64,000 nucleotides of DNA from an uncultured Eubacteriales bacterium (GTDB lineage: Bacteria > Bacillota > Clostridia > Lachnospirales > Lachnospiraceae): positions 92,838-156,837 of the forward strand of contig CASFID010000052.1 in NCBI GenBank assembly GCA_949294665.1, in the 5' to 3' direction. The notes under the pieces were generated by a model that saw only the letters and a program-made list of their open reading frames with translations, was not told the origin of the DNA and searched no databases. Position numbers and translations under genes: made by a program. Below are positions 6,097 to 63,847 of the stretch, in pieces. The number at the start of each line of letters is the position of its first letter. Position 1 is the stretch's first letter.

Positions 6097-6360
6097 TACG
6101 TGCATTGCGCTTCGAGCTTGATCCACAGTCGTTACCCCGGCAGTTAACTCAGTCCAGGCGCCCTCACGGCACCCGGGAGGTCCTGCTTAGTGCTGCTCCG
6201 TTCCCGACCTGACACGGTTCACAGGTTCCCGTCGCGTGAGACCCGGACATCAACGTCACTTACCGGGGGCAGCCCTGCAGACTGCCGCCCTCTGCGCAAT
6301 ATCACCCCTGCTATAGCGGATTGCAGGTACAAGGTACCGCTAACACCCCGGCTGCACGAG
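6097..6360 (-). ncRNA. ffs: Signal recognition particle RNA, large bacterial type with Alu domain
   Basis: Read on the minus strand, the sequence contains the SRP hallmarks in order: GGTGTTAGCGG, TGTACCTGCAATCCGCTATA (Alu domain), GGGAACCTGTGAACC, then GTCAGGTCGGGAACGGAGCA, the apical helix 8 loop bound by Ffh. The 5' CGTGCA (6353-6358) pairs with TGCACG at the 3' end (6099-6104), closing a molecule of about 264 nt. Layout and conserved blocks match the B. subtilis scRNA, including an Alu domain absent from E. coli 4.5S RNA. A consensus promoter lies directly upstream. The exact 3' end is uncertain because no clear T-run follows. Confidence 0.93.
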
Positions 6361-60364: not shown

Positions 60365-61297
60365 TTATCTGGAACAGCGGAAGAGAAGTTCTTCCCATCT
60401 TCTGTCCACTTCTTTCTGGAAAGCTTCCAGAAGAGATTCATTGCCTTTCTGAAACAGATGCCGGAATCTCCCCTGCGGTCTCAGGAAATCTTCGATGGGC
60501 TTCTTGTTTTTCGGCTCGTAGTTCAGGATCCATTTGCCCTCGATCACTTCAAACAACGGCCAATAGCATGTCTCCACGCCCAGTTTACAGATTTCCATGA
60601 TATCCGGGGTGTTGTACCTCCAGCCCCTGGGACAGGGAGCCATGATATTAAGGAATGCAGCGCCCGGGGTATAGATCGCTCTTTCGGATTTGATATGCAG
60701 GTCTTTAAAGTTTTGTACAAAGGTAGTCTGCGCGACATATGGTATATCGTGTGCAGCCATGATGGATGCCAGATCCTTTCGGTTCTGCGGTTTGCCGTTA
60801 CTCTGGGCGCCCACCGGTGTCGTTGTCGTATCCGCATACATGGGCGTAGCCGATGACCGCTGGATTCCCGTGTTCATGTAGGCCCCGTTGTCATAGCATA
60901 CATAGACCATGTCGTGGTTTCTCTCCATGGCGCCGGAGAGCGACTGAAGACCGATGTCGTAGGTCCCGCCGTCGCCGCCGAAAGTAATGAACTTGTACGT
61001 TGCGTCCAGTTTTCCCTTGCGTTTTAACGCTTTGTATGCCCCTTCCACGCCGCTTAGCGTCGATCCGGCATTTTCAAAAGCATTGTGTATGTAGCTGTCC
61101 TGCCATGACGTATAAGGATATGTAAATGTGGATACCTCCAGACAGCCTGTGGCATTCCCGATCACTGCGTGATCTCCCTCGTGAAGTCCGCGCAGTACAT
61201 TTCTCACTGCGATAGTGCCTCCGCATCCCGCGCACATTCTATGCCCTGGAGCGAGACGCTCCGGTTTATTCATTATCTCTTTAAAATTATAAGCCAT
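60365..61297 (-). CDS. porB: 2-oxoacid:ferredoxin oxidoreductase, beta (TPP) subunit
   Basis: A 310-aa thiamine-diphosphate and iron-sulfur subunit. GHRMCAGCGGTIAVRNVL carries cluster Cys; GDGGTYDIGLQSLSGA and CYDNGAYMNTGIQRS form the TPP/Mg site. Last gene of the four-gene operon, 15 bases after alpha. The order gamma-delta-alpha-beta equals the T. maritima por operon. Pyruvate is the default substrate for the family, but the Ile-type T-box upstream argues for a branched or longer 2-oxoacid. Confidence 0.92.
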   Translation of the reverse strand: MAYNFKEIMNKPERLAPGHRMCAGCGGTIAVRNVLRGLHEGDHAVIGNATGCLEVSTFTYPYTSWQDSYIHNAFENAGSTLSGVEGAYKALKRKGKLDATYKFITFGGDGGTYDIGLQSLSGAMERNHDMVYVCYDNGAYMNTGIQRSSATPMYADTTTTPVGAQSNGKPQNRKDLASIMAAHDIPYVAQTTFVQNFKDLHIKSERAIYTPGAAFLNIMAPCPRGWRYNTPDIMEICKLGVETCYWPLFEVIEGKWILNYEPKNKKPIEDFLRPQGRFRHLFQKGNESLLEAFQKEVDRRWEELLFRCSR

Positions 61298-61312: not shown

Positions 61313-62494
61313 TTATTCCCTGAGTCCCATATAGCGATAGGTTTCGCCGGCGTCATCCTGATCGATCATCTTCTGCAGATCGCCGAATACCTGTTCCATA
61401 TCTTCCACTCGAACATCGCGTCCTCCCAGGCCGTATATTATATTTGTAGCGAGAGCGGAACTTCTTGCGCGAAAAAGCGCCGACATCACGTCAGCTCCCA
61501 GCGGCCCGCCGTGATTGGAATATCCTTCGGCCCGGTCCATAACAGCGACTGCCTTTACATTTTTCAGCGCTTCGGCAATCTTTTCCGCAGGGAAGGGGCG
61601 ATAAAGCCTGATCTTTAGAAGACCGACTTTCTCGCCCTTTTCCCTGAGCCTGTCAATGGCATCCTTTGTGGTGCCTGCTGCCGAACCGATCATCACGACG
61701 GCGCGCTCTGCGTCTTCCAGACGATACGCCTCGAAAAGACCGTACTCTCTGCCGGAGATTTCCGCGAATTCTTTCGCCACATCCAGCACGGTCTGTTCCA
61801 CATGCTTCATGCCCTCTGCCTGATTTCTCTTTGCTTCCATATAGTAGTCGGTTATGGAGTAGGGGCCTACGGCCATGGGACATTCCGGATTCAGAAGATA
61901 GTTCTCCGGCTCATATTCTCCGACGAAAGCTCTGACGTCTTCATCTTCCAGAAGTTCGATGTTTTCAACGGCATGGCTGGTGATAAATCCGTCCTGACAG
62001 ATCATGATGGGAAGTCTGACATCCCTGTGCTCGGAAATCCGAAATGCCTGGACCATATTGTCATATGCCTCCTGGTTATTCTCCGCGTACATCTGGATCC
62101 ATCCGGAATCCCGGGCTCCCATGCTGTCCGAGTGATCGCAGTTGATATTGATCGGTCCTGACAGGGCGCGGTTTACCAGTGCAAGCGCCAGGGGAAGCCG
62201 ATTGGACGCTGCGATATAAAGTTCCTCCCACATGTACGCAAGTCCGCAGGAAGAGGTTGCCGTCAGCGCCCGTGCGCCTGCGGCGGAAGCCCCGATCGCG
62301 GCGCTCATGGAACTGTGTTCGCTCTCTACAGGGATAAATTCTGTATCCACCTTCCCGTCTGCTGCAAAAGAGGCGAAATATTGAGGGATTTCTGTAGACG
62401 GGGTGATGGGAAACGCCGGAAATACGTCTGGATTGATCTGGCGAAGAGCAAAGGCTACTGCCTCGTTTCCTGATAAGCGATCTCTTTTTGACAT
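61313..62494 (-). CDS. porA: 2-oxoacid:ferredoxin oxidoreductase, alpha subunit
   Basis: A 393-aa alpha subunit. LSGNEAVAFALRQINPDVFP and AFPITPSTEIPQ open the pyrimidine-binding domain; ESEHSSMSAAIGAS holds the TPP-activating Glu; TATSSCGLAYMWEELYIA and GARDSGWIQMYAENNQEA form the substrate side. C-terminal domain II (VGLLKIRLYRPFPAEKIAEA) follows. It sits 1 base after delta and 15 bases before beta. Confidence 0.93.
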   Translation of the reverse strand: MSKRDRLSGNEAVAFALRQINPDVFPAFPITPSTEIPQYFASFAADGKVDTEFIPVESEHSSMSAAIGASAAGARALTATSSCGLAYMWEELYIAASNRLPLALALVNRALSGPININCDHSDSMGARDSGWIQMYAENNQEAYDNMVQAFRISEHRDVRLPIMICQDGFITSHAVENIELLEDEDVRAFVGEYEPENYLLNPECPMAVGPYSITDYYMEAKRNQAEGMKHVEQTVLDVAKEFAEISGREYGLFEAYRLEDAERAVVMIGSAAGTTKDAIDRLREKGEKVGLLKIRLYRPFPAEKIAEALKNVKAVAVMDRAEGYSNHGGPLGADVMSALFRARSSALATNIIYGLGGRDVRVEDMEQVFGDLQKMIDQDDAGETYRYMGLRE

Positions 62495-62495
62495 T

Positions 62496-62798
62496 TCAAT
62501 TCACCCCTTCCATTGTAATTGCGCCAAAGGGACATGCCTTTACACAGATGCCGCATCCCTTGCAGTGGTCATAGTCGAATTCTGCTCTTCTTTTGTCGCG
62601 GACCGGAATACAGCTGTCCGGACATACCGGTGCGCATAACAGACATTGTCTGCACTTTTCTTCAATGAATACCGGTTTGACGCTGCTCCATTCGCCAGTC
62701 ATAAAATCCGCGGAGGTTCCCGCGCCTGCAATGACCATTCCCTCCGTCAGGTCCTGCCATTTTGTTTTCGTTCCCAGTCTGCTGATATCTGTTGCCAT
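62496..62798 (-). CDS. porD: 2-oxoacid:ferredoxin oxidoreductase, delta (ferredoxin-like) subunit
   Basis: A 100-aa subunit with two [4Fe-4S] motifs, CRQCLLCAPVCPDSCIP and CKGCGICVKACPFGAI, passing electrons from the TPP site toward ferredoxin. Start overlaps the gamma stop by 1 bp. Confidence 0.95.
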   Translation of the reverse strand: MATDISRLGTKTKWQDLTEGMVIAGAGTSADFMTGEWSSVKPVFIEEKCRQCLLCAPVCPDSCIPVRDKRRAEFDYDHCKGCGICVKACPFGAITMEGVN

Positions 62799-63370
62799 TA
62801 GTGCACCTCCTCAAACGCCATCTCGAGAGCCTTCATATTGCCCTCGATCACTTCTGGTTTACTTGCAAATTTGTGGTGGAAGGAGGAACGCATTTCTCTG
62901 AGAAATGTATCCTTGTCCATGATCTGAGCCACTTTTACGATCGCCGCAAGGAGCGGTGTGTTGGGGAAATACTTTCCAAGAGCCGCCATGGAGATCTTCT
63001 TTGCATCGATAATATATACGTCGCCTTTGTAGCCCTTCAGGTGAGGAATGATCTCTTCTTTCGTGCGTCCGGTATTCACCAGTATCGCGCCGTCCTCCTT
63101 CAGGCCGCTGGTCACATCGACCGCATCCAGCAGAGATTCATCCACGACCACGACGTACTGCGGATCATAGATATTGGAGTGTGCGCGGATCACGGTGTCA
63201 CTGATCCGGTTATAGGCGGTGATCGGCGCGCCCATACGTTCCGGACCATATTCCGGGAAGCCCTGCACATATTTGCCCGTCTGGAATGCCACATCCGCGA
63301 GGAGCAGAGCGGCAGTCTTTGCGCCCTGACCGCCCCGGCCATGCCATCTGATTTCTGTGTGGTTACTCAT
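62798..63370 (-). CDS. porC: 2-oxoacid:ferredoxin oxidoreductase, gamma subunit
   Basis: A 190-aa gamma subunit starting EIRWHGRGGQGAKTAALLLA, the family signature, with GFPEYGPERMGAP further on. First gene of the operon, with an AAAGGATG ribosome site. The ~165-base stretch between it and the T-box terminator contains a further ATGCCAG/CTGGCAT hairpin but no promoter, so transcription should come through the T-box. Confidence 0.93.
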   Translation of the reverse strand: MSNHTEIRWHGRGGQGAKTAALLLADVAFQTGKYVQGFPEYGPERMGAPITAYNRISDTVIRAHSNIYDPQYVVVVDESLLDAVDVTSGLKEDGAILVNTGRTKEEIIPHLKGYKGDVYIIDAKKISMAALGKYFPNTPLLAAIVKVAQIMDKDTFLREMRSSFHHKFASKPEVIEGNMKALEMAFEEVH

Positions 63371-63534: not shown

Positions 63535-63812
63535 TAAAAAATCCGTCCCCAATAGGGACGGACCATTTGATTCCGCAACCACCCTGTTTTCCCAAACAAG
63601 TACGAATACTGCGCACCAACATACGCGGTTTCTGTAACGGGAAACACCCGTGGGAACTTACAGAAAATCTTCGGTCCCCATCCTCAGAGATGATTTTCTG
63701 GAACGGTCTTCCGCTGTCTTTCACTGCCGGCAGCTCGCTGCAGGTAAGAGTCCGTCCCTTACTCCTTCTCGTCATAGAATTTAACTTACAGAGTGCAATC
63801 TGTTTTCTGATT
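63535..63812 (-). promoter_or_regulatory. T-box leader with isoleucine (AUC) specifier, controlling the por operon
   Basis: Read on the minus strand: GACGAGAAGGAGTA (loop-E/K-turn side of stem I), an apical stem with GCGAGCTGCCGGCAGTG, then GAAA-ATC-A-TCTCTGAG. By alignment with B. subtilis glyQS (GAAA-GGC-A-TTCTTGAG) the specifier is ATC, isoleucine, at 63692-63694. The T-box CAGGGTGGTTGCGG lies at 63573-63586; its TGGT bulge fits an A discriminator, as in tRNA-Ile. The competing terminator TCCGTCCC/GGGACGGA plus six T is at 63536-63562. Uncharged tRNA-Ile should switch on transcription. Confidence 0.9.
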
Positions 63813-63818
63813 ACAGAA

Positions 63819-63847
63819 ATTTTATCTTAAAATTCTGTAAATGTCAA
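63819..63847 (-). promoter_or_regulatory. Promoter of the T-box/por transcription unit
   Basis: On the minus strand TTGACA (63842-63847), 17-bp spacer and TAAAAT (63819-63824). Predicted start near 63812 matches the T-box 5' edge. Confidence 0.9.

Follow-up and report, generated by a model that had tools for sequence, protein, structure and literature searches.

Why should the genes of a 2-oxoacid:ferredoxin oxidoreductase stand behind an RNA switch that reads tRNA-Ile? The substrate of such an enzyme is hard to assign from sequence, and a switch of this kind is a rare clue to its product. The question is raised by the window, i.e. the whole stretch of 64,000 nucleotides analysed here, which ends together with its contig (position 64000) and belongs to a draft genome of 75 contigs, 95.9% complete and 5.05% contaminated. 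According to our analysis it is virtually certain that an isoleucine T-box precedes por in this window.

The T-box leader occupies, from stem I to the antiterminator, positions 63551..63784 of the minus strand (RF00230, 92.0 bits, E 8.8e-21), and in the permissive search the match from 63784 to 63551 covers the RF00230 model end to end, which bears out the T-box that a first-pass annotation had read before por from the sequence alone. It is absent from a default Rfam scan because its score lies one bit below the gathering score of 93; all seven relatives of the same leader form (form A, see below) score 96.7-107.1 bits. That the leader is not a product of chance follows from the E-value, the paired changes in its stems, the folding z-score of -2.53 and its recurrence in other species. 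A consensus promoter of its own, also claimed earlier, was found as TTGACA-17-TAAAAT at 63819..63847 (minus strand) with 11 of 12 consensus matches, slightly outside the interval 63535..63812 that had been drawn around the leader. Promoter-like sites show no excess in the region (2 found, 3.3 expected from shuffles); terminator-like sites are above expectation (8 vs 3.4 in shuffles). The intrinsic terminator UCCGUCCCUAUUGGGGACGGAUUUUUU at 63536..63562 (minus strand, -15.6 kcal/mol) shares its 5' strand UCCGUCCCU with the antiterminator, and the two structures are mutually exclusive since both need it. In the stretch from the terminator to porG, no sigma-70-like site agrees with the consensus at more than 8 of 12 positions, which is weak; a rival promoter inside it may exist, but there is no sign of one. 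The same interval contains a G+C-rich inverted repeat, ATGCCAG ... CTGGCAT (63520-63485, minus strand).

The leader had been said to show the full T-box plan, and stem I, specifier, T-box sequence and terminator are all in place, while the 3' part of the bulge is shortened. A passage in PMC7583486 describes the usual T-box as having a bulge of seven nucleotides, UGGNACC, between helices A1 and A2. In the window, the T-box sequence AGGGUGGUUGCGGA (63572..63585, minus strand, unchanged in 8 of 8 relatives) carries the bulge UGGUU at 63581-63577, two bases shorter than UGGNACC, and the leader is for this reason classed as a T-box variant. Helices AGGG/CCCU and GCGGA/UCCGU leave UGGUU unpaired in the best fold, at -8.5 kcal/mol; a reading with a seven-base bulge reaches -3.3 kcal/mol and was rejected. 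Compared with transcriptional T-boxes of the RF00230 type with a long stem I, the leader shares the specifier stem I, the region of stems II and III, UGGN, the antiterminator and the terminator, but differs in its bulge and in its target, a 2-oxoacid:ferredoxin oxidoreductase. The ileS T-box of the same genome (L014:1501-1799, minus strand) resembles it in the specifier AUC and in having an unusual bulge, UGGUUAAAA where UGGUACC would be expected; its target, unlike por, is a tRNA synthetase.

A bulge short by two bases and a score just under the gathering value could also be signs of a decayed T-box that has lost its switching, and two loci with PorG 89% identical, L030 and L031 (the latter with only 575 nt upstream), show no T-box. 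We nevertheless regard such decay as very improbable, as none of the 8 relatives departs in the bulge or in either antiterminator helix while stems I and II do vary, by paired changes, every one of the seven relatives exceeds the gathering score, and the promoter, specifier and terminator of the window leader are intact. In stems I and II of the 8 relatives, 9 pairs differ in both partners, where shuffles give 3.2, which is moderate evidence because the eight leaders are closely related and one of them supplied the structure; a helix without variation, such as the antiterminator, is no proof by itself. The short conserved bulge is a natural case in which to ask what part of UGGNACC a T-box requires for the sensing of tRNA charging.

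The specifier was read off by script from the covariance-model alignment under the TBDB rule, by which, as a section of PMC7778990 has it, the specifier is the triplet lying 2-4 nt 5' of where the specifier loop ends. The alignment puts AUC (Ile; 63692..63694, minus strand) and no other triplet at this position, in agreement with the ATC named in the first-pass annotation, and all 8 relatives of form A carry this triplet. The specifier loop reads GAAA-AUC-A-UCUC, its final four bases pairing with GAGA. Readings one base off, AAU or UCA, were rejected, since the distance from the closing helix marks AUC as the triplet and the same placement rule yields fitting amino acids in the 13 other T-boxes of the source genome. 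T-box matches number 14 in this genome, and 5 score above the gathering value; for the 13 beside that of por the rule was applied by eye on the alignments, with target genes also named by eye from their open reading frames. The fitting triplets (13/13) are CCG for proS, CUG for leuS, UUC for pheS, ACC for thrS, GUA for both ilvB and valS, UGG for trpE and again before a trpB-like gene, UAC for tyrS, AUG before metG (twice), AUC for ileS, and AAC, in a poor alignment, before an asparaginyl/aspartyl-tRNA synthetase-like gene. The agreement of the bulge bases UGGU with tRNA-Ile, which had been taken as independent confirmation, holds as well: the discriminator of tRNA-Ile(GAU) is A in two complete genomes of the same genus, and UGGU is complementary to ACCA. 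This fit lends weak support, because a pattern search of the source draft genome did not find its own tRNA-Ile gene and a discriminator A is common among tRNAs.

Downstream of the leader, as the earlier reading had it, lie the four por subunits, all on the minus strand in the order porG-porD-porA-porB, and this unusual target recurs in other species. The gamma subunit porG (62798..63370; PF01558) and the ferredoxin-like delta subunit porD (62496..62798) score above the cut-offs of TIGR02175 (212 bits) and TIGR02179 (92 bits), respectively. The alpha subunit porA (61313..62494; PF01855, PF17147) reaches 488 bits with NF040682 (cut-off 550) and the beta subunit porB (60365..61297; PF02775) 346 bits with NF008819 (cut-off 405); a gene of the opposite strand converges on porB. 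Among curated models por is closest to pyruvate synthase, though below the equivalog cut-offs, and more distant from the alpha model of 2-ketoisovalerate:ferredoxin oxidoreductase (Vor; 322 vs a cut-off of 646). The likeness to the PorGDAB pyruvate/2-ketoisovalerate enzyme lies in the presence of four subunits and in the gamma and delta matches; the differences are that neither alpha nor beta reaches any of the listed equivalog cut-offs, and that control is by isoleucine. Two more POR_N proteins are encoded in the source genome, a single-chain PFOR-like frame of 1190 codons and a frame of 365 codons. A search for PorG relatives in viral contigs found none. Elsewhere in the window, a large bacterial signal recognition particle RNA was located at 6098-6359 (minus strand, 194 bits).

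PorG of at least 64% identity occurs in 40 genomes of a 150-genome sample of the family, and 5 of 58 genomes of the genus have a PorG match at E 1e-40. In all, 234 por loci were examined, among which species may be duplicated. The Lachnospiraceae set (L028-L141, 114 loci) comes from three PorG searches, two of which contributed their best 30 and best 80 loci, and 108 of the 114 have at least 350 nt upstream; two further sets (L157-L185, 29 loci, and L204-L294, 91 loci) cover, together with the locus of the window, all 121 genomes that match at E 1e-45 out of the 398 phylum genomes searched. Two stem I models, R1 built from five leaders and R2 from 18, whose E-values are rough and which may miss divergent T-boxes, detected an upstream T-box at 18/114, 12/29 and 0/91 loci, i.e. 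at 30 of 234; by the same tests none precedes por at the other 204, including 96 of the 114 in the Lachnospiraceae set. Of the 30 leaders, which span five family codes, 29 have the specifier AUC and one has AUA, both isoleucine codons.

This uniformity does not mean that R2 simply selects isoleucine, since it also detects T-boxes with other specifiers beside por, located just beyond it at many loci of the phylum and mostly before serS as judged by eye (e.g. L218:8293-8393 in the set L204-L294). In that set R2 gave 23 matches at E up to 1, of which the 20 inspected include none upstream of porG, and the remaining 3 (E 0.64-0.97) have coordinates beyond porG. A specifier-blind T-box pattern found 27 of the 30 T-box loci and none of the 204 others. 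Its first version missed some forms and was widened once later forms were known, so that 27/30 is partly achieved by construction and 0/204 is the informative part. Por might still be an ordinary pyruvate or broad 2-oxoacid enzyme, whose T-box reports starvation in general and reads isoleucine by coincidence; the pyruvate synthase models and the many T-box-less loci of the Lachnospiraceae set are in keeping with it. We consider this a poor candidate, given that the specifiers are isoleucine in 30 of 30 leaders, across five family codes and four leader forms, and that the genome already encodes a single-chain PFOR-like protein.

The leaders fall into four forms. Form A (n=8) has UGGUU and comprises the window, four genomes of the same genus, G105, G124 and Faecalicatena contorta ET52; form B (n=7) has UGGUACC, three of its carriers being titled Eubacterium sp.; form D (n=12) has UGGUAUA or UGGUACA and is spread over family codes f26, f34, f70 and f134. 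Form C (n=3; L045:1060-1300, L125:3658-3890, L136:3683-3930) retains stem I, stem II and AUC with a degenerate, non-canonical T-box sequence, and has a conserved hairpin CGUAAAUGG/CCGUUUACG overlapping the terminator loop. In one of these loci, between the T-box leader and porG, we also observed a Clostridiales-1 RNA (RF01699, 89.8 bits, L045:1299-1468). A quick tree of PorG from the 114 loci requires at least 8 changes in T-box presence, which leaves room both for a single old T-box lost many times and for several gains.

Beside the RNA anatomy, the isoleucine specifier of all 30 por leaders and the gene and genome context, which are established here, we infer tRNA binding, antitermination, induction and the activity, direction and substrate of the enzyme. 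Charged tRNA-Ile would let the terminator form and leave por switched off. Uncharged tRNA-Ile(GAU) would pair by its anticodon with AUC and by its ACCA end with UGGU, and, once bound, would hold the antiterminator, so that RNA polymerase could read into porGDAB. Por would then work in the reductive, CO2-fixing direction toward an isoleucine precursor, and the likeliest reaction would be the formation of 2-oxobutyrate from propionyl-CoA, CO2 and reduced ferredoxin, feeding the ordinary ilv steps.

Threonine ammonia-lyase was searched for with TIGR01127 at E 1e-30 in 24 por genomes, 12 with and 12 without the T-box. None of the 12 form D carriers (7 genera; genomes 92-100% complete) gave a match, while 8 of the 12 T-box-less genomes did (7 of 12 above the cut-off; 8 of 9 genera). 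The T-box-less dozen was chosen from 17; of the 5 omitted, three (G550, G529 and G410) fall in the one genus in which none of the 4 tested members matched. Fisher's test on these counts yields 0.001-0.005, for genomes that are not independent. The source genome itself has the enzyme (450 bits), as do 138 of 150 genomes of the family, including all 40 por carriers (in G040 and G089 the matches are partial and below the cut-off). The idea that por replaces a lost threonine ammonia-lyase was therefore rejected for the family of the window, where por would be at most a second route. A search for citramalate synthase that covered these 150 family genomes found it above the cut-off in none.

Two genomes have por and threonine ammonia-lyase side by side. 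In G433, porGDAB is preceded by a PAS_6/HTH regulator, threonine ammonia-lyase (538 bits) and RidA and immediately followed by an acetate/propionate kinase, though a single operon is uncertain because about 390 nt separate RidA from porG; in G247 the end of threonine ammonia-lyase is 84 nt from porG. These ilvA-por clusters have no T-box, and their Por may degrade 2-oxobutyrate. In the Lachnospiraceae set the neighbours of por, judged by eye with porB resolved in part of the loci, are diverse and mostly uninformative. Weaker hints come from CoA-transferases in the vicinity of por at four loci, of which two are near-copies (the two enzymes scanned are under the cut-off), and from a sodium-dependent transporter 3' of porB, seen in F. 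contorta and also in L064, a locus without a T-box by R1 and R2. We also noted a protein of about 304 amino acids 3' of porB in 10 of the 12 form D loci (e.g. L187:4027-4941, minus strand), the contigs of the other two ending inside por. It is weakly CbiT methyltransferase-like (45 bits vs a cut-off of 78), has no Pfam match, and occurs near por in the Lachnospiraceae loci L042, L053, L126 and L136 too.

From the specifiers, the absence of threonine ammonia-lyase in form D and the adjacency of por and threonine ammonia-lyase in G433 and G247, it would be logical to suggest that Por leads to an isoleucine precursor, and we are fairly confident that por serves isoleucine synthesis. As to the precursor itself, we lean towards 2-oxobutyrate made from propionyl-CoA, switched on by uncharged tRNA-Ile, a reading supported by the existence of a separate single-chain PFOR-like protein for pyruvate in the source genome. 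Counting against it are the pyruvate synthase models nearest to por, the T-box-less majority of loci (204/234), and the ilvBN-ilvE operon of the source genome, whose T-box is for valine and not for isoleucine. Also in this genome, a LeuA-like frame of 668 codons (L026, contig C59 from 6904) has, as judged by eye, an AraC-type helix-turn-helix-like end.

The valine control of ilvBN-ilvE would be explained if, under the same switch, Por carboxylated 2-methylbutyryl-CoA to 3-methyl-2-oxopentanoate, from which an aminotransferase would give isoleucine, the source being 2-methylbutyrate. Synthesis of isoleucine from 2-methylbutyrate is found in rumen anaerobes, and the proposed reaction would also account for specifiers that all read isoleucine and for the lack of threonine ammonia-lyase. 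We hold this reaction to be unlikely, however: an enzyme of this kind would be expected to serve all three branched-chain amino acids, while none of the 30 por leaders has a valine or leucine specifier, the 2-ketoisovalerate enzyme model is far under its cut-off, and the threonine ammonia-lyase next to por in G433 and G247 speaks for 2-oxobutyrate.

For 2-oxobutyrate, the reaction itself is known. A passage of PMC7476758 reports that anaerobes convert propionate to 2-ketobutyrate by a ferredoxin-dependent route, and a formate-lyase route is also suggested there for some of them; that passage names no gene, and what is presented here is a candidate gene set with its regulator. In full-text searches for T-box together with ferredoxin oxidoreductase or 2-oxoacid, no title indicated a paper on por, and the word oxidoreductase is absent from the main texts of the T-box papers PMC2494555, PMC3766115 and PMC7778990. 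The link of this known reaction to por genes, as predicted here from sequence, did not turn up in the literature searched, a scope that leaves two older T-box surveys outside.

More speculatively, a dedicated family of ferredoxin-dependent 2-oxobutyrate synthases, marked by the isoleucine T-box, might carboxylate propionyl-CoA in Bacillota-type anaerobes and be the main source of 2-oxobutyrate where threonine ammonia-lyase is absent, and the T-box of Lachnospiraceae might have evolved new switching parts, such as the five-base bulge and the alternative hairpin of L045, L125 and L136. We put this forward as a tentative extension. If the proposed function of Por is true, it would offer genes for the ferredoxin-dependent route from propionate to isoleucine in anaerobes, and it would mean that some Lachnospiraceae couple a low-potential CO2-fixing step to their amino acid supply.
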